Source: an uncultured Ruminiclostridium sp.
GTDB taxonomy: Bacteria; Bacillota; Clostridia; Oscillospirales; Ruminococcaceae
Assembly: GCA_947630175.1 (NCBI GenBank)
Contig: CANRGJ010000006.1
Location: 62,001 to 126,000 of the forward strand
DNA length: 64,000 nt
Direction of reading: 5' to 3'
Shown: piece after piece, positions 51,830-64,000 of the stretch
Position numbering within the stretch: the stretch's first letter is position 1
Layout of the letters: every line of letters begins with the position of its first letter
Notes under the pieces: generated by a model
Database searches by the model: none
What the model was told of the DNA's origin: nothing
Seen by the model: the letters and a program-made list of their open reading frames with translations, nothing else
Program-made: the position numbers and the translations under genes

Positions 51830-52450
51830 ATGAAACAAGTGAAAAAGCTCAAGCCTTTTATATATATGCTGACGGTCGCATTGGCAGTGATGTTTGCGGT
51901 ATGCGCTTACGCCGAGGACGCTCCCGCACCGGAAGCGTCGGATTCAAGCAGCAGCGAGGTCACTCCTGCTGACGAGCCCGAGCCTGAAGTTACCACGCCC
52001 GAATCGAGCGAATCTTCCGCAACTCCTGAACCAACTCCCGAGCCTTCTTCTGAGCCTACTACCGTTCCGGAGCCCGAGCCTACCACCACTCCCGCACCCC
52101 AGATATCTCTGGACACCGACCCTGTTGTCACCGAAACTTCTACCACTACCACCACTCAGACCACAGCGGCGGACACGTCGGATACTACCACCTTGGAAAC
52201 CTCCGACACTTCCGACACGTCAGACACCTCCGACACAAGCGGCACGTCAGATACAGCGCTGACGTCCGACAACAGCACTACTCCTCCTGTGGTAAGCGCC
52301 GCACCCACAACTCCTATTGCGGGAAACCCCGACGATTATATGGGAACTTCGCTTCTGATAGGCGGGATCGTCCTGCTGCTAGTCCTTGCGGTGGCAATTC
52401 CCCCAATCGTGAGAAAAGTACGCAAGAGCATAATTTACAAATACGACTGA
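51830..52450 (+). CDS. Ser/Thr/Pro-rich membrane-anchored surface protein
   Basis: The 206-residue protein has a signal peptide (KKLKPFIYMLTVALAVMFAV, cleavage after YAE near 29), a disordered stalk of about 135 residues made of Ser, Thr, Pro, Glu and Asp with TSDTSDTSD-type repeats, and a C-terminal membrane helix (about 172-192, LLIGGIVLLLVLAVAIPPIV) with a basic tail. Such mucin-like stalks hold a protein off the membrane or act as a spacer in the wall. No folded domain is visible. Its ribosome binding site is AGAAAGGACTG. Confidence 0.75.
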   Translation: MKQVKKLKPFIYMLTVALAVMFAVCAYAEDAPAPEASDSSSSEVTPADEPEPEVTTPESSESSATPEPTPEPSSEPTTVPEPEPTTTPAPQISLDTDPVVTETSTTTTTQTTAADTSDTTTLETSDTSDTSDTSDTSGTSDTALTSDNSTTPPVVSAAPTTPIAGNPDDYMGTSLLIGGIVLLLVLAVAIPPIVRKVRKSIIYKYD

Positions 52451-52463
52451 TTAAAATAAAGAA

Positions 52464-52498
52464 AATAAAGCCTTGATTAAATCAAGGCTTTATTTTTA
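52464..52498. terminator. Bidirectional terminator
   Basis: An AT-rich stem around AAAGCCTTGATT/AATCAAGGCTTT with T-runs on both strands. It ends the surface-protein gene and the opposite spmB gene, whose stop lies at its edge. Confidence 0.9.
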
Positions 52499-53023
52499 TG
52501 CTCCCAGAAAGATCCGCACCGCCGCAGCGCTGAGTATCCACCCGCAAACGTCTCCCACCAGCGCCGCCGCCAGAGCGTAGCGTATTTTTTTCACCTTCGT
52601 TGCGGAAAAATACACTGCTATCGTGTAAAACGTAGTCTCACTGCTCCCCAGCATAACGGAGGCGACTCTCCCCGCAAAGCTGTCTGCTCCCGTTTGGGTG
52701 AGAATGTTTTCGTAAAGCGCAACTGCTCCACTTCCCGAAAAGGGACGGAGTATCACCAGCGGAGTACACTCGGCGGGAAATCCGAAAAGCTCCGTGACAG
52801 GCTTCAGCCATTCCGTCAGCAATTCCACCCCGCCGCAGGCTCTGAACATTCCCACGCAGGTCACCAGAGCCATAAGAGAGGGGAAAATGTCCCTGACCGT
52901 CCCAAGCCCTTCCTCAACGCCCTTGAGAAATTCGCTGAAAACGTCCGTCTTTTTTGCCAGACCGAATATGAAAACAGCGGCAAATATCAAAGGGACCGCA
53001 TAATCGCCTATATTGAAGTTCAA
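52496..53023 (-). CDS. spmB: Spore maturation protein B
   Basis: The 175-residue protein has about four to five membrane helices and the nucleoside-recognition (Gate) core: FPSLMALVTCVGMFRACGGVE near 49-69, PVTELFGFPAECTPLVILRPFSGSGAVALYENIL near 76-109 and SSETTFYTIAVYFSATKVKK near 127-146. This is the SpmB pattern. In Bacillus subtilis spmA and spmB are needed for full dehydration of the spore core. The start overlaps the spmA stop by four bases. It agrees with the cotJ genes that this organism makes spores. Confidence 0.92.
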   Translation of the reverse strand: MNFNIGDYAVPLIFAAVFIFGLAKKTDVFSEFLKGVEEGLGTVRDIFPSLMALVTCVGMFRACGGVELLTEWLKPVTELFGFPAECTPLVILRPFSGSGAVALYENILTQTGADSFAGRVASVMLGSSETTFYTIAVYFSATKVKKIRYALAAALVGDVCGWILSAAAVRIFLGA

Positions 53024-53625
53024 AGCCCTGCACCCCTTCTGCGGGCGGCAGCCCCCATTATTTTAGCGGCAGTTACCGTCAGCGCCGCGTTTATCAATGA
53101 TACCACCCACACAGCGGGAAGTATCTCCATAGGCGCAGCCGAGCCGTGCTGGAGCCGCAAAGCCGCTACTGTAGTGGGAATAAGCTGAAGGCTAGCGGTA
53201 TTAAGGACTACGAATAGTATCATATTGTCCGTCGCTCTTTCCCCCGACTTTTCCTCTTTTTCCAGCGCCCTCATCGCCGCCAGACCGAAAGGAGTTGAAG
53301 CGTTCCCCAAGCCAAGCAGGTTCGCCGTTATGTTCAGCACGATGAACTGCATAGCCTCTCCTTTCGGTGAAATTCCGTGGAAAAGCCGCCGCAAAACAGG
53401 GCTGAGCGCCTTTGCCGTCAGCTTTGTAAGCCCCGACGTCTGCGCCACCCGCATTACCCCACTCCAAAGGCAGATTATCCCGCAAAGGGTTATGCAAAGG
53501 GTCACCGCTTCTCCGCAGGCGGAAACTGCGGCATTGCTTACCGCTGCCGCGTCGCCCCGTATAAATCCTATAATCACCGACAGAATGATAAGTCCGCCGA
53601 AAACCCATTTCATCATAACGCTCAC
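53020..53625 (-). CDS. spmA: Spore maturation protein A
   Basis: The start is taken as GTG 53625, seven bases after AGGAG; alternative ATGs lie three codons on. The 201-residue protein shows the nucleoside-recognition domain of SpmA: CIIALWSGVMRVAQTSG-like segment near 48-60 (here LCGIICLWSGVMRVAQTSGL), RRLFHGISPKGEAMQF and NITANLLGLGNASTPFGLAAM near 101-121. It has about four membrane helices. Together with SpmB it acts in the late stage of spore core dehydration. Transcribed leftwards with spmB. Confidence 0.92.
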   Translation of the reverse strand: MSVMMKWVFGGLIILSVIIGFIRGDAAAVSNAAVSACGEAVTLCITLCGIICLWSGVMRVAQTSGLTKLTAKALSPVLRRLFHGISPKGEAMQFIVLNITANLLGLGNASTPFGLAAMRALEKEEKSGERATDNMILFVVLNTASLQLIPTTVAALRLQHGSAAPMEILPAVWVVSLINAALTVTAAKIMGAAARRRGAGL

Positions 53626-53678
53626 TTCCGTTCTCCTCAAAATTTATGCGGAAAAAGGCGGCTGTATGCCGAAAAACA

Positions 53679-53707
53679 TTGACTTTAAGGGCGGATTGTG
53701 ATAAAAT
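53679..53707 (+). promoter_or_regulatory. Promoter of the aldo/keto reductase gene
   Basis: TTGACT (53679-53684), 17 bases, TG-extended TAAAAT (53702-53707), about 50 bases before the start. Confidence 0.75.
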
Positions 53708-53758
53708 TAAAAATGGATTATTATGCGTATTCCTATAAAACGAAAGGAAGAAACCGTT

Positions 53759-54760
53759 ATGTCAGCTTACACCGCTTCACTTAACCGATATGAAAAAATG
53801 AAATACAACCGCTGCGGAAAATCGGGCTTAAAGCTCCCCGCCGTCAGCCTCGGCTTATGGCAGAACTTCGGCTACGGCTCCGACTTTGCTACTGCCGAAA
53901 AAATGGTCCGCACCGCCTTTGATTTGGGAATAACTCACTTTGACCTTGCCAACAACTACGGTCACCCTTACAACGGCTCCGCCGAGGAAAATTTCGGCAG
54001 GATACTGAACAACGGGCTGAAAGCCTACCGTGATGAAATAATAGTTTCCACCAAGGCGGGATACGAGATGTGGGAAGGACCCTATGGGGACAAAAACGGC
54101 TCCCGCAAGTACCTCACCGCAAGCCTTGACCAAAGCCTAAAACGCCTTGATTTGGATTATGTGGACATTTTCTATCACCATATTTTCGACCCCTCAACTC
54201 CCCTTGAGGAAACAGCCCTTGCCCTTGACAACGCTGTAAGACAGGGAAAAGCCCTGTACGTGGGTATTTCCAACTACAACAGCGCCCAGACCGCCGAAAT
54301 TTCCGCAATATTCAAGGAGCTTCACACTCCCTTTATCGTAAATCAGCCGTCATATTCAATGTTCAGACGCTGGGTGGAGGAGGACGGACTGGATAAGCTG
54401 GCGGTGGAGCAGGGCTTTGGCTTGGCGGTATTTTCGCCGCTTTTCCAGGGACTTCTCACCGACCGCTACTTAAACGGTATCCCCGCCGACAGCCGCATAG
54501 GCAAGGGAAGTACATGGATAGGGAACGAGCTTACCGAAACGCGTTTAAATCAGATAAAAGCGCTTAACGAAGTGGCTCAGAGCAGAGGACAAAAGCTGTC
54601 CCAGATGGCGTTGTCATGGGTATTGAACAATCCCGCCGTCGCCACCGTTATTATCGGAGCGTCAAAGCCTGAACAGATAGCCGAAAACGCAGAAGCGGCA
54701 AACGCCCCCGAATTTACCGCCGAGGAGCTTGCCAAGATCGAGGAAATATTGAAACAGTGA
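53759..54760 (+). CDS. Aldo/keto reductase (YghZ/GSP69-like)
   Basis: Start set at ATG 53759 with AAAGGAAG 9 bases before. The 333-residue TIM-barrel protein has catalytic residues visible: FDLANNYGHPYNGSAEENFG (Asp, Tyr), VSTKAGYEMW (Lys) and DIFYHHIFDP (His). It ends with QMALSWVLNNPAVATVIIGA, binding NADP. The segment LKLPAVSLGLWQNFG and the AEENFGRIL pattern are those of the YghZ group, which reduces aldehydes such as methylglyoxal or sugar-derived ones. It is 43 bases from the alpha-galactosidase gene and probably co-transcribed with it. Confidence 0.92.
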   Translation: MSAYTASLNRYEKMKYNRCGKSGLKLPAVSLGLWQNFGYGSDFATAEKMVRTAFDLGITHFDLANNYGHPYNGSAEENFGRILNNGLKAYRDEIIVSTKAGYEMWEGPYGDKNGSRKYLTASLDQSLKRLDLDYVDIFYHHIFDPSTPLEETALALDNAVRQGKALYVGISNYNSAQTAEISAIFKELHTPFIVNQPSYSMFRRWVEEDGLDKLAVEQGFGLAVFSPLFQGLLTDRYLNGIPADSRIGKGSTWIGNELTETRLNQIKALNEVAQSRGQKLSQMALSWVLNNPAVATVIIGASKPEQIAENAEAANAPEFTAEELAKIEEILKQ

Positions 54761-54803
54761 ACACTGTTTTTCAAAAAATACAACAAACAAGGAGAAAGAA
54801 AAA

Positions 54804-55979
54804 ATGAGCACACCTCTTGCACAAAGACCGCCTATGGGCTGGAACAGCTGGAACACCTTCGGATTTAACGTCAGCGAGGAGCTGATAAAGGGCATAGCCG
54901 ACAAATTCATCGAGCTTGGGCTCAAGGACGCAGGCTATGAATACATAGTTATAGACGACTGCTGGAGCGAAAGGGAACGCGACGAAAACGGCAGAATAGT
55001 CCCCGACAAAAACAAATTCCCCAACGGAATAAAAGCCGTCGCCGATTACGTTCACTCAAAAGGACTGAAATTCGGAATTTATTCCTGTGCGGGAACTCAC
55101 ACCTGCGCAGGCTTCCCCGGCAGCTTTGACCACGAATTTGTGGACGCCGCCACCTTTGCGGAGTGGGGAGTCGACTATCTGAAATACGACTACTGCTACC
55201 GTCCTATCCATTCGGTAGGCGAAAACCTTTACAAGCGTATGGGAATGGCTCTGCGCAACTGCGGACGCGACATAGTCCTTTCCGCCTGCAACTGGGGCAA
55301 CGACGACGTATGGCGTTGGATAAGAGAGAGTGGCGCGCAGCTTTATCGTTCCACAGGAGACATTCAGGACAACTGGCAGTCGATAAAGCACATCGTCCTC
55401 AGTCAGCTTGACCGTGAGTGCTACGGCGGCACCTACTGCTGGAACGATATGGATATGCTGGTAGTGGGAATGCACGGCAAGGGAGACAACGCCGAAGTTT
55501 TAGGCGGCGCGGGCAAGCTTGCAGGCTGCACCGACACCGAGTACAAGACCCACTTTGCTCTCTGGGCAATTATGAACAGCGCGCTTATGATAGGCTGCGA
55601 CGTCAGGAACGCAAGCGAGGAAGCGCTGAATATACTGAAAAACAAAGACATAATCGCAATAAATCAGGACGCCGAGGGCAGAGGACCCTACTGCATAAGG
55701 CAGTGGAACAATCCCGACAACGTTTTTGCCCTTATCAGACCCCTTTTCGGCGGCGATTACGCTATCGGAATGTTCAATCTCAGCGACAATCCCTCCGAGA
55801 TGTCCCTCCAGTTCTTTGATATAGGACTTCCCGTTGCCAGTGGCTTCGGACTGCAATTCTACAACTGCCATACAGGCAAGGACGAGGGCGTATTCACCGA
55901 GCGCCGTTCAGTTAGAGTCGAGCCTCACGACTGCTATATGTACCGCTGCAAGCTGGTAAAACTTAATAAAGAAAGCTGA
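54804..55979 (+). CDS. Alpha-galactosidase, glycoside hydrolase family 27
   Basis: The 391-residue protein starts RPPMGWNSWNTFGFNVSEEL, the GH27 hallmark, followed by YIVIDDCWSER, LKFGIYSCAGTHTCAGFPGS and the nucleophile segment YLKYDYCYRP. The acid/base Asp lies in RSTGDIQDNW and WNDMDMLVVG follows. A beta-sandwich C-terminal domain closes it. It removes terminal alpha-galactose from oligosaccharides such as those of galactomannan or raffinose type. No signal peptide: it acts in the cytoplasm on imported sugars. AAGGAGAAAG precedes the ATG. Confidence 0.96.
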   Translation: MSTPLAQRPPMGWNSWNTFGFNVSEELIKGIADKFIELGLKDAGYEYIVIDDCWSERERDENGRIVPDKNKFPNGIKAVADYVHSKGLKFGIYSCAGTHTCAGFPGSFDHEFVDAATFAEWGVDYLKYDYCYRPIHSVGENLYKRMGMALRNCGRDIVLSACNWGNDDVWRWIRESGAQLYRSTGDIQDNWQSIKHIVLSQLDRECYGGTYCWNDMDMLVVGMHGKGDNAEVLGGAGKLAGCTDTEYKTHFALWAIMNSALMIGCDVRNASEEALNILKNKDIIAINQDAEGRGPYCIRQWNNPDNVFALIRPLFGGDYAIGMFNLSDNPSEMSLQFFDIGLPVASGFGLQFYNCHTGKDEGVFTERRSVRVEPHDCYMYRCKLVKLNKES

Positions 55980-55984
55980 TAAAA

Positions 55985-56179
55985 ATGCAATGCAAAAAAT
56001 GCGGCAAGCCCGAGCTTTCAGGCGACGAGCTTGCCATATACCGAAAGCTGGTGAACAGGGGAGCTACCGAGTTCCTCTGTATCGACTGCCTTGCGGAATT
56101 TTTCAAGTGCGACCGCGCGGACATTGAGGAGCGCATAAGATACTACCGTGAAAGCGGCACCTGCACCCTTTTCGTGTGA
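55985..56179 (+). CDS. Small Cys-rich protein, putative zinc-binding
   Basis: The 64-residue protein has MQCKKCGKPEL at the start (Cys3, Cys6) and FLCIDCLAEFFKCDRADIEE (Cys32, Cys35, Cys42) in the middle, giving a CxxC...CxxC zinc-binding pattern, and ends CTLFV. It starts six bases after the alpha-galactosidase stop and ends about nine bases before the first membrane/zinc-ribbon gene. Position suggests it is made on the same transcript as one or both. I know of no defined function for it. Confidence 0.75.
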   Translation: MQCKKCGKPELSGDELAIYRKLVNRGATEFLCIDCLAEFFKCDRADIEERIRYYRESGTCTLFV

Positions 56180-56188
56180 GAATTGCCT

Positions 56189-57022
56189 ATGGACAAAAAC
56201 GTATTCTCTTTCAAGCAGCTGTTTTTGATATTCTTCACCTTTGCTCTTACCATAGCGACTTTAGTGATGAAGCTGGTGGGCAAAACGGTGATGATAGACT
56301 ATTATCTCTATCTTCTGTTCCTCCACGTTTATCACATAGCGCTGTGCTATATTATAAACAATCGCCTGAACGACGTGATAAACAAGCTGGACACTGACGC
56401 CCTCACAGGCGTGCGCCGCTTTCTCGGTCATATGGAAATGCTGACGGCGCTTATCGTTGTGAACGTTGTCACCGAGGGGATAATGCAGCTTCCGATAGCT
56501 TTGTACCGAATATGCGAGGACCCCGCCCGCGGACTTTCGATGATACTTTTTATCCCGTGGCTTTTGGAATCCTTTATCGGAAACGTGACCTATGCGGGGG
56601 AAATGTATTACGCCTGGTATCTGCCATACTGCATAGCTATGCTTTTCATCAGTATGCACATTATCGGAAAATATCATAAAGCGCGCAAGATAATTGCCGC
56701 TATGGAGCTTGATGAGCTTATCAGCAAAAACGCCCCTTGGCGCAAAGAGATAAGGGAAAAAGAGCGCCTGCTTGCCGAAACAGGTCTTTCCGACACGGAA
56801 AAAAGCGCAGTCGACCCCGCCCTGCTTGCCAAGATACCCCAGGATGAGCTTGTCCCCGACGAGGAGGAGCTTCAATACATTTTGCAGCAAAGAAAGCGCC
56901 CCGACAACCCCGACGAAATAGAGCAGGACTGGACCTGTCAGGCGTGCGGCTCGGATAATCCCGCCAAAGCGGAGGAATGTGTTTTCTGCGGAGCAAAACG
57001 GGAACAGAGAGAGGGGAAATAA
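56189..57022 (+). CDS. Membrane protein with C-terminal zinc ribbon, array member 1
   Basis: Start at ATG 56189 (a TTG two codons earlier is possible; the ribosome binding site is weak). The 277-residue protein has about five membrane helices in residues 1-170, then a cytoplasmic region with the shared peptide KIPQDELVPDEEELQYILQQ, and a ribbon TCQACGSDN...EECVFCGAKRE (CxxC-11-CxxC). Its membrane half is most like array member 5 (FSFK start, FIPWL, KYHKARKI). The last 60 residues are nearly identical to those of member 2, also at DNA level. No enzyme motif is visible. Only three bases separate it from the next gene. Function unknown. Confidence 0.8.
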   Translation: MDKNVFSFKQLFLIFFTFALTIATLVMKLVGKTVMIDYYLYLLFLHVYHIALCYIINNRLNDVINKLDTDALTGVRRFLGHMEMLTALIVVNVVTEGIMQLPIALYRICEDPARGLSMILFIPWLLESFIGNVTYAGEMYYAWYLPYCIAMLFISMHIIGKYHKARKIIAAMELDELISKNAPWRKEIREKERLLAETGLSDTEKSAVDPALLAKIPQDELVPDEEELQYILQQRKRPDNPDEIEQDWTCQACGSDNPAKAEECVFCGAKREQREGK

Positions 57023-57025
57023 GCT

Positions 57026-57736
57026 ATGCTCACTGCAAGAAATATAGTGGCTGTCATTGTCATGCTGACGTTATGTCTTTTCCTTGGACGTTTCGTATAT
57101 TTGATAGGGCTGATATTTTGTGTGTTTGAGATAACGCTTATCGTCATAGCTGTGCGCAGGTGTGCGGATTATAAAAGGTACGCCGATGATTTCACTTACG
57201 CAAAAAAAACGGAAAAGTATTATGACTCTGCCGAAACTGCCTTTACGATGATGGTGGCGTGCGGCGCCTTTGCAGTCGCAGAGATCCTTCGTGACATTAT
57301 TGTATTTCATAGTATAGTTCGTGTATTGAACAATCCGGGCTTGTGGTATCTTCTTTTTGTTGCGGGAAATATCTTTTTCTTCCTTATCGCAGGCGATAAG
57401 GTAAAGAAAATGAAAATGCAAAAGTCAACTCTTGAAAACCCGCCTGTCATAAGCCCCGAAAAATTTTTCTCCGAAATAGTCGGGCAAAAGGAAGTTTCAG
57501 ACGACCACGAGATAGGCAGAGCCTATGTCAGCGAAAAGCTGCTCTCAGAAATACCTCAGGACGAGCTTGTCCCCGACGAAGAAGAACTTCAATATATTTT
57601 ACAGCAAAGAAAGCGTCCCGATAACCCCGACGAGGCGGAGCAGGACTGGACCTGTCAGATGTGCGGCTCGGATAATCCCGCCAGAGTGGAGGAATGTGTT
57701 TTCTGCGGCGCAAAACGGGAGAAGGGAGAAAACTAA
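57026..57736 (+). CDS. Membrane protein with C-terminal zinc ribbon, array member 2
   Basis: The 236-residue protein has about four helices in residues 1-130 (two at the N-terminus, AFTMMVACGAFAVAEILRDI, LWYLLFVAGNIFFFLIAGD), then FFSEIVGQKEVSDDHEIG, LLSEIPQDELVPDEEELQYI and a ribbon TCQMCGSDN...EECVFCGAKRE. Its membrane half and the FFSEIVGQKEVS peptide are shared with member 3, its C-terminal 60 residues with member 1. The gene thus looks like a mosaic of both neighbours. Starts three bases after member 1, with GAGAGGGGAAAT upstream. Confidence 0.82.
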   Translation: MLTARNIVAVIVMLTLCLFLGRFVYLIGLIFCVFEITLIVIAVRRCADYKRYADDFTYAKKTEKYYDSAETAFTMMVACGAFAVAEILRDIIVFHSIVRVLNNPGLWYLLFVAGNIFFFLIAGDKVKKMKMQKSTLENPPVISPEKFFSEIVGQKEVSDDHEIGRAYVSEKLLSEIPQDELVPDEEELQYILQQRKRPDNPDEAEQDWTCQMCGSDNPARVEECVFCGAKREKGEN

Positions 57737-57741
57737 AACTT

Positions 57742-58458
57742 ATGTTCAGCATTAAAAGTTTAATTCCCATATTACTCTCTGTTCTCCTTTGTATCGTTAT
57801 GAATAACGCCGTCTATCTGCTGGGTGTTATGGCGTGCCTTGTTGAGGTGCCGTTCATAATAATGGCAATAGAGGGCTGCAAAAAATATAAAAAGCACGCA
57901 GGGAGCGTTTCTTATATAAAAAATGTAATATCCTGCTACGAAGTGGCGGGAACGTGTTTTGCGATAGCAGCTGTGGCAGCTGTATTCTCCCTTATATGGT
58001 TTATCTTTCAGATGTTTTCAGACTTCCTCGGCATTTTTGTTGACCCCAACTTCTGGTACGTTTTGCTGACGGTGGGAAACGTTTATCTGTTCATTAAAAC
58101 GGGAGATTATATTCAGCATATGAAACGGGAAAAGACTGAGCTGGAACACCCTGCCATTTCCAAATCGGACGAATTTTTCTCCGAAATAGTCGGACAAAAG
58201 GAAGTGTCAGTTGACGACGACGAGATAGGCAGAGCCGCTGTCAGCAAAAAGCTGCTTTCAAAAATCCCGCAGGACGAGCTTGTCCCCGACCTTCAGGAGG
58301 TAAGAGAGCTTTTGCAGAAAAGCGCCGTTCCCCTTGAAACGCCTGAAAAAGAAATATGGATATGTCCCATATGTGGTACAGAAAATAACGCAGCCGAGAG
58401 CGACTGCTCCGTTTGCGGCACAGAAAGAGAACAGGGAAAGGAAAGAAATAATGCTTAA
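57742..58458 (+). CDS. Membrane protein with C-terminal zinc ribbon, array member 3
   Basis: Start at ATG 57742 (GGGAG upstream), five bases after member 2; an earlier in-frame start would lie in that gene. The 238-residue protein has about four helices (LLSVLLCIVMNNAVYLLGVM, VAGTCFAIAAVAAVFSLIWF, FWYVLLTVGNVYLFI), then DEFFSEIVGQKEVSVDDDEIG, SKIPQDELVPDLQEVRELL and ribbon WICPICGTEN...DCSVCGTERE. It is closest to members 2 and 4 in layout. The stop lies eight bases inside the next gene, so translation is coupled. Function unknown. Confidence 0.82.
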   Translation: MFSIKSLIPILLSVLLCIVMNNAVYLLGVMACLVEVPFIIMAIEGCKKYKKHAGSVSYIKNVISCYEVAGTCFAIAAVAAVFSLIWFIFQMFSDFLGIFVDPNFWYVLLTVGNVYLFIKTGDYIQHMKREKTELEHPAISKSDEFFSEIVGQKEVSVDDDEIGRAAVSKKLLSKIPQDELVPDLQEVRELLQKSAVPLETPEKEIWICPICGTENNAAESDCSVCGTEREQGKERNNA

Positions 58459-59206
58459 ACTGCGAAATATTATTGCGGCAGTCATCACAATGGTGTTCTG
58501 TTTGATGGCAGACCCCAGCGGAGGACCTCCCGGCAGCCTTGCTACCACAATGGGTTATCTGATGTTCGTGTATATAATGATATTTGTCGGTCTTACGGTG
58601 TACAAAGCAAGGCACTTTGACGAGCATATCACAGACAGCGACTATTTAAAAAGGACTGAAAAATATCATGAGGCGGCGGGCTCAGGACTTATAATAATGG
58701 CGATATTAGCCTTGAATGGGCTTATATGGCTGTTCCCGCTGGTAATGTTCCTCAACCTGCCCGCAGTCGTTATGAACGCGCGCTTCTGGCAGGCAATTCT
58801 CACCATAGCCGCTTTATTTATTTTTATAAGATCAAGCGATGTCGTTCACGAGATGAAAAAGAAAAAAGCGCTGTATGAAAATCCCCATATTTCAAATTCT
58901 GACGAATATTTTTCAGCCATAGCCGCCGACAAGGACGTTTCCTATCAGGACAGCGCCGAGATAGGAAAGATAAAGGCAAGCGGCGAGCTGCTTTCTCAGA
59001 TAACGGACGACGAGCTTGTCCCGCAGGCAAGCTCCGACGAGCTAAAGCAGGACGATACCTTATTTGTCAGCAATATAAGCGAGGCAGACGAAGAAAAGCC
59101 TGCCGAACCTCAGCAGGAGGAAAAGACCGTGCATTGCAAAGTATGCGGCTCCGAAAATCCCGACACGTTCAGCGAATGTGTTTTTTGCGGAGCAGCGTTG
59201 AAATAA
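58451..59206 (+). CDS. Membrane protein with C-terminal zinc ribbon, array member 4
   Basis: Start at ATG 58451 with GGAAAGGAAAG upstream and an 8-base overlap with member 3. The 251-residue protein has about four helices (IIAAVITMVFCLMADPSGGP, MGYLMFVYIMIFVGLTVYKA, LIIMAILALNGLIWLFPLVM, FWQAILTIAALFIFI), a cytoplasmic linker with SDEYFSAIAADKDVSYQDSA, QITDDELVPQ in place of IPQDELVP, a Glu/Pro-rich stretch, and ribbon VHCKVCGSEN...ECVFCGAALK. It keeps the order helices, EYFS peptide, DELVP peptide, ribbon. Function unknown. Confidence 0.82.
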   Translation: MLKLRNIIAAVITMVFCLMADPSGGPPGSLATTMGYLMFVYIMIFVGLTVYKARHFDEHITDSDYLKRTEKYHEAAGSGLIIMAILALNGLIWLFPLVMFLNLPAVVMNARFWQAILTIAALFIFIRSSDVVHEMKKKKALYENPHISNSDEYFSAIAADKDVSYQDSAEIGKIKASGELLSQITDDELVPQASSDELKQDDTLFVSNISEADEEKPAEPQQEEKTVHCKVCGSENPDTFSECVFCGAALK

Positions 59207-59237
59207 AAGAAAAAGCGTTAAGCTGAAAGGAATCACT

Positions 59238-60341
59238 ATGTTCTCATTCAAAGAAACAGCCCTTCTGATAGGGTCGCTGGCGTTAGTCATCATCTATTCC
59301 ACTGTAAGACTTATCTGGGGCGACGAGATAAATACCCTGCCGCTGTGTTTGTTTATCCTGCTTGTGATAATAGCGTTTGCGGTATTTGCCTTTGCGCTCC
59401 TCAACAGGTCGAAAAAGCTGCTCAAGACCCATAAGCGGGAGGTGTTTGAAAGCGCCGCCAAGACTATGAGCATTATGGAAACGCTGTTCACAGTCATTAT
59501 AGTAAATCTTCTTTTCTGCATAATCGACCTGATAAAGGGCATAGCGTTACCGTCGGAAAGCCTTGATTATATGCTGAAAATGACCCTGTTCCTGCCATGG
59601 CTTTCCGAGGTGATGAAGGGGAACAACGTCGCTTTTTCCTACTCCTTTACTTGGCAGATAGTGCTGACGCTTTTTTCAATGCTGTTGATGACTGCGACCT
59701 CCGCAAAATATTTCAAGGCGAGAAAGATATACAACGCCCTCGTTTCCGTCCCCGAAAAGCCACAGCAGGAAAAGGTGTTTGCAGAGGCTGAACAGCAAAA
59801 CGGCATAGTCCTTGTTTCCGACGAATTCAAGGAGACCGAGGAACAGCTTATCGCCGAGATACCCCACGAGGAAATGATACCCAACGAGGCGTATTTCAAA
59901 CGCCGTATGAGAGAGGTGTCCGACACAGTTCAGGTGCCTGAAATAAAAGCAAGGACCTGCCCGGTCTGCGGCTCCGAGAACGAAGGCTATAAAACGGTTT
60001 GCGAATTTTGCGGAGCAAAGCTGGACGAACTTGACGGCGACCTTCTGTACACCGCTGAGGAGGAAAAGGAGCAACCGCCTGCTCCCGTCAGGGAAAAGGC
60101 GGACGACGGTATTTCCTTCTCTCACCTTATGGTGGACGACAGCGAGGAGCAGACCGAGGAAACGCCTGCTCCCGCCGAAGAGGAAGACGTTTCAATCGAA
60201 AGCCTGATGATATCCGACGAGGAAAAAGCAGAAGAAGCTCCGCAGGAGGAAGCTCAGCCCGAACAGCCGCAAAACGCCGATACATACGACGATGTTTCAA
60301 TAGACGAGTTTATTGCTGACGACAACGAAAAAGAAAATTAA
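59238..60341 (+). CDS. Membrane protein with internal zinc ribbon and acidic tail, array member 5
   Basis: The 367-residue protein begins MFSFKETALLIGSLALVIIY, has about five helices in residues 1-155 resembling member 1 (FLPWLSEVMKG, KYFKARKIYN), then EIPHEEMIPNEAYF as the form of the shared peptide and ribbon RTCPVCGSEN...CEFCGAKLDE near 236-260. About 105 residues follow that are very acidic, with two similar units (DDGISFSHLMVDDSEEQTEE, EDVSIESLMISDEEKAEE, DDVSIDEFIADDNEKEN). Such tails often act as binding strips. It is the longest array member. AAAGGAATC precedes the ATG. Confidence 0.82.
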   Translation: MFSFKETALLIGSLALVIIYSTVRLIWGDEINTLPLCLFILLVIIAFAVFAFALLNRSKKLLKTHKREVFESAAKTMSIMETLFTVIIVNLLFCIIDLIKGIALPSESLDYMLKMTLFLPWLSEVMKGNNVAFSYSFTWQIVLTLFSMLLMTATSAKYFKARKIYNALVSVPEKPQQEKVFAEAEQQNGIVLVSDEFKETEEQLIAEIPHEEMIPNEAYFKRRMREVSDTVQVPEIKARTCPVCGSENEGYKTVCEFCGAKLDELDGDLLYTAEEEKEQPPAPVREKADDGISFSHLMVDDSEEQTEETPAPAEEEDVSIESLMISDEEKAEEAPQEEAQPEQPQNADTYDDVSIDEFIADDNEKEN

Positions 60342-60351
60342 AGAGGTAATT

Positions 60352-60900
60352 ATGAGTATTTTCAACGACAGCTTTTCTATCCTGACGTTTTTTTCGCTGA
60401 TATTCTGCCTTATCATTGTGGGAGCAGCGGCGGCGGTGTTTGTGAATTTCCGTTCTCGCACCGAACGCTTCCTCAATCAGCCAAGCCAACAGAATTATGC
60501 GGCCGCAAAGGACCTTTACGTTATTTCTATCGTCTGCATTGTACTACTTTCGATCTACCTGCTGAACAACGCTCTCGGCGTGATTTTCGATTTTTTCCGC
60601 CTGCTGGTGGGAGCAGATGAAACGGTCGGAAGATCCGATTTGTTTATAAGTATGGGAAAATGCGCCGCCTTCGTGACCCTGATCGTAATAGGAGCAAAGT
60701 CGGTATTTTCCTTCTCCGAAGCAAAGGCGCTTTATTTCAGGCTTTACCCGCCGCTGATACCGAAAGGTCAGCCTGCTGACAGCTCCGAAAAAATCTACAC
60801 CACCGCCGCCATTTATGATGAAAAGATATGCCCCTCCTGCGGCAAGGCAAACGACGGCAGAAGCAACTCCTGTGTTTCCTGCGGCACGGAGCTGAAATAA
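60352..60900 (+). CDS. Membrane protein with C-terminal zinc ribbon, array member 6
   Basis: Start at ATG 60352 with GAGG at proper spacing, ten bases after member 5. The 182-residue protein has three to four helices (SILTFFSLIFCLIIVGAAAA, LYVISIVCIVLLSIYLLN, AAFVTLIVIGAKSVFSF), a short linker without the DELVP peptide, and a C-terminal ribbon KICPSCGKAN...SCVSCGTELK. It is the shortest and most divergent member and the last one before a strong terminator. The array members together form one operon from 55985 or earlier to 60900. Confidence 0.8.
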   Translation: MSIFNDSFSILTFFSLIFCLIIVGAAAAVFVNFRSRTERFLNQPSQQNYAAAKDLYVISIVCIVLLSIYLLNNALGVIFDFFRLLVGADETVGRSDLFISMGKCAAFVTLIVIGAKSVFSFSEAKALYFRLYPPLIPKGQPADSSEKIYTTAAIYDEKICPSCGKANDGRSNSCVSCGTELK

Positions 60901-60922
60901 ATACTCCCTCAATCCACAACGC

Positions 60923-60958
60923 AAAAACCGTTCACTTTTGTGAACGGTTTTTATTTTT
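60923..60958 (+). terminator. Terminator of the zinc-ribbon array
   Basis: A perfect 13-bp stem AAAAACCGTTCAC/GTGAACGGTTTTT with a 4-base loop, followed by ATTTTT. Confidence 0.93.
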
Positions 60959-61054
60959 CGTACAACTATCGCATTAACGTTTTAAGAATACACTGATAGT
61001 GGGCAAAAAGAATTTGCGTTATGCCCGAAAAATCAGAAAAGGAAAGGATAAGCG

Positions 61055-61996
61055 ATGAATTTACTTAAACGGCGGCTCTCATGCGTTGTGATGGCAATAA
61101 TAGTCCTGCTCACAGCGTCCTGCGTTCCCGCCGAAAATAAAAAGGAGGATAAGCTGAACGTGACGGTCACCACCACTATGCTTTACGACCTTGCAAGGCA
61201 GATAGGCGGGAAGTACGTCAACGTTCAGGGGCTTATGGGAAGCGGCGTTGACCCGCACCAGTACCGCGCCTCGGCGGGGGACATTGTGAAAATGCAGAGA
61301 GCAGACGTAGTCGTCTACAACGGACTTCACCTTGAGGGGAAAATGGGCGACGTTTTCGCCTCCCTTGAGGATTACGGCAAAACGGTGATATGCGCCGCCG
61401 ACGGGATAGATGAATCAATGCTGATAAAGCACGACGGCGTTTACGACCCGCACATATGGTTCGATGTTTCTTTGTGGAAGCTGGCGGCAAAAGAGGTAGC
61501 AAACGGTCTTTCCAAAGCCGACCCCGACAACGCCGCCCACTATGCGGAAAATTTTGAAGTGTACGATAAACAGCTCACCGAGCTTGACAAGTACATCAGG
61601 AAAAGAGCAGAGGAGCTTGATGAAAACCAGCGTGTGCTCATCACTGCTCACGATGCGTTCAGCTATTTCGGCAAGGCTTACGGCTTTAAGGTAATGGGCA
61701 TACAGGGCGTCAGCACCGCCGCCGAGGCAGGAACGGCAGACGTTATAGCTCTGGCTCAGTTCATAGCTGACAACAGGATAAAGGCTGTCTTTGTTGAAAC
61801 CAGCCTGCCTGTAAAGGCAATAGAGGCGCTGTGCGAGGCGGTAAGAGCAAGGGGCTTTGAAACCTCCCTTGGCGGCAGCCTTTACAGCGACTCTCTCGGA
61901 GATGAGACCAACGGAACGAACACCTATATCGGAGCGTTCCGACACAATACGGACACTGTAATAGACGGACTTAAAGGAGATGATGAAATTGAATGA
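61055..61996 (+). CDS. Metal ABC transporter substrate-binding lipoprotein (TroA/ZnuA cluster A-I)
   Basis: The 313-residue protein has a lipoprotein signal with lipobox TASC (Cys23). It is a cluster A-I metal-binding protein: ligands His68 (VDPHQYRAS), His133 (DPHIWFDV), His199 (TAHDAFSYFG) and Asp279 (LYSDSLGDE). The order His-His-His-Asp and the absence of a His-rich loop are like TroA of Treponema, which binds zinc and manganese. Two permease genes downstream also follow the TroABCD/MntABCD layout rather than ZnuABC. The metal cannot be decided from sequence. GGAAAGGA precedes the ATG. No clear metal-regulator box is seen in the 154-base upstream gap. Confidence 0.92.
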   Translation: MNLLKRRLSCVVMAIIVLLTASCVPAENKKEDKLNVTVTTTMLYDLARQIGGKYVNVQGLMGSGVDPHQYRASAGDIVKMQRADVVVYNGLHLEGKMGDVFASLEDYGKTVICAADGIDESMLIKHDGVYDPHIWFDVSLWKLAAKEVANGLSKADPDNAAHYAENFEVYDKQLTELDKYIRKRAEELDENQRVLITAHDAFSYFGKAYGFKVMGIQGVSTAAEAGTADVIALAQFIADNRIKAVFVETSLPVKAIEALCEAVRARGFETSLGGSLYSDSLGDETNGTNTYIGAFRHNTDTVIDGLKGDDEIE

Positions 61997-62714
61997 GGAA
62001 TATGCGGTGAACGTGAGGGGACTGACCGTTGCTTACGACTCAAGGGCGGTGCTGTCCGACGTTAATATAGATATAAAAAGAGGAAAAATAACCGCCATAA
62101 TGGGTCCCAACGGGGCGGGAAAAACCACTCTTTTAAAGGCAATGCTGAAGCTGATACCAAAGTCCTGCGGCTCGGTAACCTGGAACGAGGTGGACGGCAG
62201 ACCGCCCGTCATAGGCTATGTTCCCCAGAGCGAAAGCGTGGACTGGGACTTTCCCGCCACCGTATGGGACGTGGTGACTATGGGCTGTTATAAAAGGCTG
62301 GGCTGGATAAAACGCCCGAAAAAAGAGGACAGAGAATTGAGCCTTCAGATGCTGAAAAAAATGGGAATGGAAAAATGCGCCGACAGGCAGATAAGCTGTC
62401 TTTCAGGCGGACAGCAGCAGCGCGCGTTTATCGCCAGAGCGCTTGTCCAGCAGGCGGATATTTACTTTATGGATGAACCCTTCAAGGGCGTGGACGTCGC
62501 CACGGAAAAAACGATAGTGGAGCTTTTCAGAGAGCTGAAAAACGAGGGGAAAACGGTGGTCGCCGTACATCACGACCTTTCCACCGCCGCAGATTATTTT
62601 GACGAGGCGGTGCTGATAAACCGCAGAGTGATAATGCAGGGAAACGTCAAAGCGGCGCTGACTCAGGAGAACCTGTCCCTTACATACCGAGGAACGACAG
62701 GAGGAGAGCCGTGA
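61980..62714 (+). CDS. Metal ABC transporter ATP-binding protein (TroB/MntB-like)
   Basis: The 244-residue ATPase has Walker A MGPNGAGKTTLLKAML near 39-54, signature CLSGGQQQRAFIARALVQ and Walker B YFMDEPFKGVDVATE. PVIGYVPQSESVDWDFPATV with the VDWDFP segment is typical of the zinc/manganese importer ATPases. It overlaps the substrate-binding gene by 17 bases. The first ATGs at 61980/61983 abut the AAAGGAG site, so TTG at 61989, with 9 bases spacing, may be the real start. Confidence 0.94.
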   Translation: MMKLNEEYAVNVRGLTVAYDSRAVLSDVNIDIKRGKITAIMGPNGAGKTTLLKAMLKLIPKSCGSVTWNEVDGRPPVIGYVPQSESVDWDFPATVWDVVTMGCYKRLGWIKRPKKEDRELSLQMLKKMGMEKCADRQISCLSGGQQQRAFIARALVQQADIYFMDEPFKGVDVATEKTIVELFRELKNEGKTVVAVHHDLSTAADYFDEAVLINRRVIMQGNVKAALTQENLSLTYRGTTGGEP

Positions 62715-63616
62715 ATATTTTTGAACTTCTTTGCGACCACACCGTTCTGGTGGTGGTATTCGGCTCGGCGCTTCTGGGTATGGTAAGCGGGTTGCTGGGC
62801 ATGTTTTCTGTCCTCCGCCGTCAGAGCCTTTTAGGGGACGGAGTGAGCCACGCGGCGCTTCCCGGCGTTGCGGCGGCGTTCCTGCTCACGGGAACTAAGG
62901 ACAGCGGAACGCTTTTGCTTGGAGCGCTTTTATCGGGACTTACCGCGGCGGGACTTATCTTTTCCTCTGTGAAAAAGTCGAAGGTGAAATTCGACGCCGC
63001 GCTCGCCACAATTATGTCCTCCTTCTTCGGCTTGGGAACGGTACTGCTCACCTGCGCGCAAAAGCTCCCCAACGCAACTCAGGCGGGACTTCACAGCTTT
63101 ATTTACGGGCAGGCGTCCTCAATGCTGGAGCGTGACGCTCTGGTAACGATAATTTGCGGAGGAGCAATACTTGCCGTCGTTCTTCTGCTCTGGAAGGAAA
63201 TAAAGGTGTTCGTTTTCGACAGGGATTTTGCCTTACAGCTGGGAATACCCTGCGGCAGGATAAATCTTATCCTCTCGTTTCTCACCGTCCTCGGCGTGAT
63301 CATCGGCATACAAACGGTGGGAGTAGTTCTGATGAGCGCAATGCTCATCGCTCCTGCCGCCGCCGCAAGACAGTGGTGCGACAAGCTGTGGGTTATGGCT
63401 GTTCTTTCCGCCCTGTTCGGCGGTATATCGGGGGCGGCGGGAGCATTAGCTGGAGCATTGGCGCCGGGAATACCCACAGGTCCGTCAATAGTGATAGCGG
63501 CGTCTGCACTGGCAGTGTTGAGCCTTTTGTTTGCCCCTAAAAGAGGAGTTTTGTACCGCATATACCTGCGGCACAAGGCTATGAAAAAGGAGGAAAGCTA
63601 TGGATGCGGGAATTGA
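62711..63616 (+). CDS. Metal ABC transporter permease (TroC/MntC-like)
   Basis: The 301-residue protein starts at GTG 62711 with AGGAGG upstream and overlaps the ATPase stop by four bases. It has about eight membrane helices and the ABC-3 family marks VLRRQSLLGDGVSHAALPGV near 36-55 and LITxx-type FVFDRDFALQLGIPCGRIN near 170-188. The family carries zinc, manganese or iron inwards. It overlaps the second permease gene by 17 bases. Confidence 0.93.
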   Translation: MNIFELLCDHTVLVVVFGSALLGMVSGLLGMFSVLRRQSLLGDGVSHAALPGVAAAFLLTGTKDSGTLLLGALLSGLTAAGLIFSSVKKSKVKFDAALATIMSSFFGLGTVLLTCAQKLPNATQAGLHSFIYGQASSMLERDALVTIICGGAILAVVLLLWKEIKVFVFDRDFALQLGIPCGRINLILSFLTVLGVIIGIQTVGVVLMSAMLIAPAAAARQWCDKLWVMAVLSALFGGISGAAGALAGALAPGIPTGPSIVIAASALAVLSLLFAPKRGVLYRIYLRHKAMKKEESYGCGN

Positions 63617-64000
63617 GATACAGCTTATAGCAACATTAACAGCGGCAGGCTGTGCGATACCGGGGAGCTTTCTGGTACTGCGCCGAATGAGTATGACCGC
63701 CGACAGCATAACTCACACCATACTTTTAGGAATAGTCCTCGCCTTTTTCGTGACAAACGACCTTTCCTCCCCGTTTCTCATTATAGGTGCGGCTTTGACA
63801 GGACCCGTCACGGTATGGCTGACTGAGCTTATCGTAAAGACAAGGCTTTTGTCCGAGGACAGCGCCACGGGGATAGTTTTCCCCCTGCTTTTCTCCATAG
63901 CGGTGATACTGATAACCCGCTACGCAGGCTCTGCTCACCTTGACACGGATTCGGTGCTTTTAGGGGAGCTTGCCTTTGCTCCCTTTGACAGAATGATAGT
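63600..64000 (+). CDS. Second metal ABC transporter permease (TroD/MntD-like), cut by window end
   Basis: A frame from ATG 63600, with AAGGAGG 7 bases upstream, runs to the window end without a stop (133 codons). It has ABC-3 permease features: the start IQLIATLTAAGCAIPGSFLV, LRRMSMTADSITHTILLGIV matching the VLRRQSLLGDGVSHAAL position of the first permease, and further helices (TEL, IVFPLLFSIAVILITRYAG). It is paralogous to the gene just before it. Two permeases after ATPase and binding protein give the TroABCD/SitABCD order. Confidence 0.92.
   Translation, partial: MDAGIEIQLIATLTAAGCAIPGSFLVLRRMSMTADSITHTILLGIVLAFFVTNDLSSPFLIIGAALTGPVTVWLTELIVKTRLLSEDSATGIVFPLLFSIAVILITRYAGSAHLDTDSVLLGELAFAPFDRMI

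Follow-up and report, generated by a model that had tools for sequence, protein, structure and literature searches.

A tandem array of membrane proteins with zinc-ribbon tails in a gut clostridial genus: a possible modular membrane platform

Why would a bacterium keep a row of six different membrane proteins that all end in the same kind of small zinc-ribbon tail? The question is raised by a window of 64,000 nucleotides from an uncultured Ruminiclostridium sp. (contig CANRGJ010000006.1 of assembly GCA_947630175.1; C6:62001-126000 of a genome of 2.70 Mb in 46 contigs, here G000, with other genomes and loci cited by G and L numbers). Six adjacent + strand genes, m1 to m6 (the array, 56189-60900), each encode three to five candidate membrane helices, as judged by hydropathy, followed by a C-terminal zinc ribbon. 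A preliminary description of this DNA had taken the layout as a sign of a hetero-oligomeric membrane complex with a shared cytoplasmic docking or zinc-sensing end, an interpretation that is partly supported by the analysis reported here. According to sequence comparison, the genes belong to a family of small polytopic membrane proteins that duplicates in tandem and was met here in one genus only. The reading put forward, with a probability of roughly 40%, is that of a modular membrane platform in which diverging membrane domains are joined to a conserved, exchangeable and probably cytoplasmic zinc-ribbon connector.

One family of ribbon-tailed membrane proteins

All six open reading frames of the preliminary description were found again, as were their several membrane helices and terminal ribbons and their tight packing, with successive gaps of 3, 5, -8, 31 and 10 bases. 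Five of the products are assigned to type A, namely m1 (56189-57022; 277 amino acids (aa), four to five predicted membrane helices and the C-terminal ribbon), m2 (57026-57736; 236 aa, a mosaic without counterpart in the sister species G005), m3 (57742-58458; 238 aa), m4 (58451-59206; 251 aa) and m5 (59238-60341; 367 aa, with a long acidic extension past the ribbon). The sixth, m6 (60352-60900; 182 aa, three predicted membrane helices and the C-terminal ribbon), represents type C. The peptides noted earlier are likewise present, with IPQDELVP-like variants in five of the six products and FFSEIVGQKEVS-like peptides in three.

By BLAST, m1 to m5 match one another beyond the ribbon (m1 with m5, E 3e-21; m2 with m3, E 1e-60), and m6 matches them via the ribbon only. 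A type A profile without the ribbon also finds the membrane part of m6, in a match that begins at about the second helix of m6, and with the ribbons removed types A and C gave 97.7% in hhalign (E 1.4e-12), whereas none of 15 comparisons in which SpmA, SpmB and permease proteins served as controls exceeded 3.3%. Because the membrane parts match in this way, m1 to m6 are, at the level of sequence profiles, a single family composed of type A and type C. The earlier division into subtypes holds for the features common to m1 and m5, which are real, and falls for the separation into groups. No Pfam or NCBIfam model matched the membrane part above its cut-off.

The ribbon itself follows the pattern CxxC-x10-CxxC in all six members, one residue shorter than the spacing of 11 first given, and an alignment of 31 members with a mean column identity of 17% shows no variation in the residues C, C, G, N, C, C and G; this alignment leaves out the ribbonless copy of G051, two genes of a third subtype from G042 and G051, and the G005 copies. 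Within G000 there are 19 matches to PF13240 at E<=0.01, six of them in the array. Seven other ribbon proteins of this genome have at least two predicted helices and resemble the zinc-ribbon membrane proteins of the PF13240/PF13248/PF12773 class, which, as in the array, combine several helices with a short four-cysteine ribbon. To our knowledge, small membrane proteins with ribbon tails are common and largely uncharacterised. Each of the seven genes stands alone, with no second such gene in its locus of about 3 kb, and the ribbon is N-terminal in six and C-terminal in one (L090), whereas the array is tandem, carries its ribbons C-terminally and has exchanged tails. The combination of ribbon and membrane domain is therefore an ordinary architecture; a run of six is not.

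Exchange of tails and the nature of the ribbon

A trace of modularity is left in the DNA of m2, where 119 linker bases are 89% identical to m3 and 179 tail bases are 88% identical to m1. Between m1 and m2, the membrane parts are 16% and the tails 88% identical, whereas m1 and its G084 orthologue have 83% identity over the membrane part and 58% over the tail. The m1 tail of G005 is itself a hybrid: at the 56 sites at which m1 and m2 of the window differ, the first 28 are m1-like, the last four m2-like and the rest mixed. These patterns indicate recombination between neighbouring tails of the array, and the idea of a shared tail in the preliminary description gains from this exchange between paralogues. 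Ribbons can also multiply, with two per protein in G042 and G051 (strict pattern) and five in G084. In the latter genome, the counterpart of m5 (L033 9275-10801) has five near-identical ribbons spaced by 58-60 residues, consistent with a recent internal amplification. As to selection, the ratio of nonsynonymous to synonymous substitution rates (dN/dS) between G000 and G005 was 0.076-0.257 for m1, m3, m4, m5 and m6 and 0-0.098 for eight neighbouring genes, values that place the compared array genes under purifying selection.

The predicted ribbons resemble RanBP2-type zinc fingers (PF00641; NUP153, RanBP2, TRABID, ZRANB2), with which they have in common the cysteine spacing, a tryptophan two residues ahead of the first cysteine (in m1 to m3) and the position of an asparagine four residues past the second cysteine (in all six, and invariant in the 31 aligned members). 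In terms of Pfam scores, m1 alone among the window members exceeds the PF00641 cut-off of 27 bits (28.4), with 23.7 for m2, 24.8 for m3, 10.5 for m4, 12.4 for m5 and 17.2 for m6. A model of the m3 ribbon superimposed on RanBP2-type fingers with TMt 0.83-0.88 and a root-mean-square deviation (rmsd) of 0.4-0.5 over 25-26 columns, for example on 3gj4_B (TMt 0.87, rmsd 0.5, 25 columns), though at E values of only 0.65-3.3 for these closest rows. In the PDB, the type A profile finds its best sequence matches for the ribbon; they comprise 8s05_C (E 7.8e-6), presumably an ArnA relative, archaeal ArnA (5a8i_A; E 2.9e-5) and 9hcj_00, which is named as a RanBP2-type zinc finger, with E 7.8e-6 to 4.2e-5 for the three; the ArnA match covers the ribbon with its flank and is confined to profile positions 234-271. 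In RanBP2-type fingers, a TF or LV pair after the second cysteine goes with ubiquitin or Ran binding. The TF-type dipeptide of the ubiquitin-binding NZF subtype was found in none of the six window members; all six have GS, GT or GK at this place instead, and their ribbons stand in a bacterial membrane context.

Regarding topology, lysines and arginines number four to seven in the loop after helix 2 and zero to two in the remaining non-tail loops of m1 to m5, so that by the positive-inside rule the ribbons are probably cytoplasmic. Together with hydropathy, the same rule suggests an N-in/C-in orientation for a four-helix type A protein and N-out/C-in for type C. The m3 model, built from a 12-row alignment with a mean predicted local distance difference test (pLDDT) score of 72.5, shows helices at 4-47, 56-91 and 102-135 together with a small ribbon and a linker that is disordered, with pLDDT of 80-93 for blocks in residues 11-130 and 67-78 for the ribbon; the m5 model (mean pLDDT 57) has helices at 4-30, 34-64, 67-103 and 131-169. 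A relationship of m6 to the CD225/dispanin family (PF04505), raised by weak hits, was considered and found no support at cut-off, with 15.4 bits against a cut-off of 27.1 and E<=0.05 for two of 14 type C members (best E 0.0051).

Occurrence and neighbours of the array

The type C profile A3 and the type A profile A4 were compared with 71 genomes of the genus at E<=1e-8, where A3 matched 18 genomes and A4 matched 12. An array of one to six genes is present in 13, in 12 of these after a gene for a GH27-type α-galactosidase. Gene order varies: AAAAAC in G000; A-A-A(broken)-A-C in G005, from which m2 is missing; AAA(five ribbons)CC in G084; AACC in G063; at least four genes in G042 and at least two in G064; the two-gene form A+C in G001, G008, G086 and G016; one A near a contig end and one C on another contig in G080; and a single C in G081. 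In G051, six genes, one of them ribbonless, lie on a contig that ends without a GH27 gene on it. A quickly built tree of 26 GH27 rows places all 12 GH27-bearing array loci in one group of 14 rows (Shimodaira-Hasegawa-like approximate likelihood-ratio test 95), which also holds the array-less G015 and the second, array-less GH27 locus of G081; G021, also array-less, lies just outside. The loci read represent 26 of 34 GH27 places, with those of G052, G055, G057, G062, G066, G074, G075 and G082 left out, and the loci of G022, G056 and G073 end too early to judge the presence of an array. Two candidate members were rejected, G021_7512 for its N-terminal ribbon (135 aa) and G056_4268, which has no ribbon and no relative. 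Away from the array, G016 (L107 5836-6894) and G001 (L108 5432-6523) encode a ribbonless protein with a type-A-like membrane domain and an acidic tail with repeated IFGTG-like motifs. A contig titled Bacteroides sp. (JAMPHV010000053.1; L032/L039) has the same gene coordinates as the G008 contig and probably stems from a mislabelled assembly.

The remaining five A3-positive genomes, G052, G055, G057, G060 and G062, carry tandem runs of three to eight related genes at a second locus, beside a sugar-epimerase gene (Pfam Epimerase, shown for G052) that we take to be galE. The run of G052 (L101 3044-7850) has eight genes, with six CxxC/CxxC ribbons, one CxC variant and one ribbonless product; G057 has five, one of them ribbonless, and G055, G060 and G062 have three each. 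On the far side, four of the five adjoin a gene for a protein of 1587-1860 residues with a similar start (some cut by the end of the stretch), from which that of G060 differs; the only one scanned, in G052, contains collagen-binding and SpaA domains. In hhalign, the membrane part of the last two genes gave 90% against type C (E 1.6e-6) and 67% against type A, and the first gene (set IIa) gave 97.7% against the last two, 21.6% against type A and 6.3% against type C. Four further genes (set IId) reached at most 2.9% against any other set; the comparison did not include three genes, of which G052 has two and G057 one. By these profile comparisons, the second array is related to the first in part; the rest is without shown homology. 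At E<=1e-8, the type A profile matched in none of these five genomes, nor was any of the 13 array genomes seen to carry both arrays, the second being detected via the type C profile only, which also makes five a lower bound. Copy number accordingly differs among close relatives, from one to six genes at the first locus and up to eight at the second.

In a survey of 394 sampled genomes of the order, the matches beyond the genus covered no more than the ribbon end of each profile, in five genomes for A4 and in three for A3. Full-length matches are thus confined to one genus in this survey, which is of limited sensitivity and a weak test of absence because at most six candidates were scored per genome and G060, a carrier of the second array, was missed. 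A phage or plasmid origin was rejected, with no match for m1 among phages or for m6 among plasmids, the two members so used. As arrays recur with conserved neighbours (13 of 71 genomes at the first locus, 5 of 71 at the second), the counter-case named in the preliminary description, in which relatives would occur only as scattered single genes, does not apply.

Upstream of the array lie the GH27 gene (Pfam Melibiase_2; 54804-55979, + strand) and p0 (55985-56179, + strand), which encodes a CxxC/CxxC protein of 64 aa for which no Pfam or NCBIfam model scores above its cut-off. This Cys-rich protein does precede the array, in 11 of the 12 loci with the 5' end on the contig (the exception being G081); its membership in the array was rejected, as p0 tracks GH27 and occurs without the array. 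Of 26 GH27 loci examined in the genus, 24 have p0 (partial in G073; detected by tblastn in G005, G064 and G080), and 12 of 17 family-wide matches adjoin GH27. This small CxxC partner of the α-galactosidase shows 100% identity in G005 and G084. A distant relative (32-43% identical) lies between a BrxL gene and a gene for a NifS/DndA-like cysteine desulfurase in a compact three-gene unit that is possibly defence-related (L077 57-2864, L081 363-3172, also L078-L080; in G000, the small gene at C17:6837-7016). L077 and L081 were assigned by Pfam, L077 also by TIGR02688 above the NCBIfam cut-off, and L078-L080 were judged by protein starts, L080 ending at a contig edge. Downstream, a terminator-like stem-loop (60923-60952, + strand; stem of 13 pairs) closes the array as described before and has the longest stem among the + strand terminator-like sites of 52400-64000. 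An Rfam scan of 52000-64000, in which a riboswitch was looked for, gave no family at gathering score.

What the array may do

In the proposed platform, several paralogous membrane bundles would co-assemble or work in parallel as diversified membrane-side modules, and a single partner in the cytoplasm, be it a protein or an RNA, would be docked by the interchangeable zinc ribbons on their flexible tails. Zinc would serve as a structural cofactor of the ribbons. The array could thereby act as a platform anchored in the membrane, for docking or sensing, with an input side that diversifies and an output connector common to all members. The preliminary interpretation is weakened by the ribbon being a generic, widespread fold. 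A number of points weigh against the platform. The Foldseek matches of the m3 ribbon have weak E values (0.5-3.3), and the array contains no conserved partner, enzyme or regulator. In the hydropathy-based topology, m1 scores five segments, which taken literally would place its ribbon outside, and the m3 model fuses the first two hydropathy segments into one long helix. Copy numbers of one to eight and the common A+C form mean that no fixed six-subunit complex is needed. Moreover, array members evolve faster than their neighbours, m4 of G005 is broken by an in-frame stop and one G051 copy is ribbonless; some members are therefore dispensable. Finally, the exchange of tails could be a by-product of repeat recombination and not of selection for a common partner.

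Several of these points would also fit the absence of any dedicated system, with an ordinary ribbon-tailed gene duplicating and drifting in one lineage and clustered only through tandem-repeat recombination. The confinement of full-length matches to one genus, the raised dN/dS, the broken and ribbonless members and the lack of an array in G015 agree with such drift, which nevertheless appears unlikely given that the ribbon residues are invariant across the 31 members, that dN/dS is still well under 1, that arrays recur at two loci and that the A+C unit is found in four genomes. A more specific role is suggested by the Zn/Mn-type ABC transporter after the terminator (61055-63616, + strand; binding protein 61055-61996, ATPase 61980-62714, permease 62711-63616): acting at the membrane, the ribbons might buffer cytoplasmic zinc or sense it, and tune this importer. 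An orthologue of its binding protein (63-100% identical) occurs in 12 of the 13 array genomes, all except G016 (76% complete), and in none of the other 58, where just matches of 24-30% identity were seen; G015, within the array clade, has neither array nor orthologue. Yet because the array clade is single, this co-occurrence is weak functional evidence and mostly reflects shared ancestry. The importer directly follows the array in five of eight resolved loci (G000, G005, G084, G063 and G001) and lies apart in three, in which the array is contiguous with other genes (G086, G008 and G081), so the two are not always adjacent. Importer genes near contig starts in G042, G064 and G080 were not counted as linkage; the G064 and G080 arrays seem to go on at the ends of other contigs (L106, L111), which suggests separation. 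With a terminator between array and importer, no importer gene labelled in the 12-14 kb around the second array, and a metal specificity for which Zn (AztC) and Mn (MntA) models give the best scores, none reaching cut-off, an accessory function in metal homeostasis is rather improbable.

Alternatively, the paralogues might guard the membrane against envelope stress or antimicrobial peptides, their ribbons recruiting a phage-shock-type effector as in YdjG/YdjH/YdjI-PspA. Fast divergence and changing copy number would fit an arms race. Zinc ribbons recur on membrane proteins of phage shock protein (PSP) systems (PMC11237479), and the Ydj proteins of Bacillus subtilis link PspA to the membrane (PMC8581546, a text that contains no word starting with "zinc"). 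The YdjGHI-PspA module, in which membrane-linked proteins, some of them zinc-ribboned, anchor a cytoplasmic effector, is the nearest working analogy (PMC11237479, PMC8581546). The window's own genome also encodes an SPFH/Band-7 protein with several C-terminal ribbon motifs, beside two ribbon proteins, one of them Tim44-like (L096; G000 about C1:367786-369126), in a locus resembling a YdjGHI-type envelope module. Within the array, by contrast, no SPFH, TPM or PspA gene was recognised and no match of the membrane domain to the proteins of that module was seen; none of these three domains was found in the seven array-region proteins or the neighbours scanned, nor was a stress regulator recognised beside the array. 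Assignment to an anti-phage defence family was rejected as well, as among nine proteins scanned against PADLOC-DB 2.0.0 two had any match, to short parts of unrelated models (best E 0.007). Stress protection is on this evidence rather improbable.

Among the readings, the modular platform has the best support, with membrane domains that can diverge and a ribbon connector that is conserved and exchanged. In its furthest form, which is rather unlikely, the array would be an undescribed dedicated module of a gut clostridial genus, combining diversifying membrane inputs with a shuffled or multiplied cytoplasmic zinc-finger connector in one to eight genes at two alternative loci, after GH27-p0 or beside the sugar-epimerase gene, and serving in the surveillance of the membrane or in metal-dependent signalling. 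Searches of the open-licence literature showed no account of arrays of this kind. Orthologues, paralogues, tail swaps, multiplication of ribbons from one to five and their loss all occur in one genus, and this natural variation makes it possible to test which half of the protein confers specificity and which partner is bound by the ribbon. Should the reading of a common connector be true, these bacteria would possess diversified membrane modules that share one interchangeable intracellular zinc finger.

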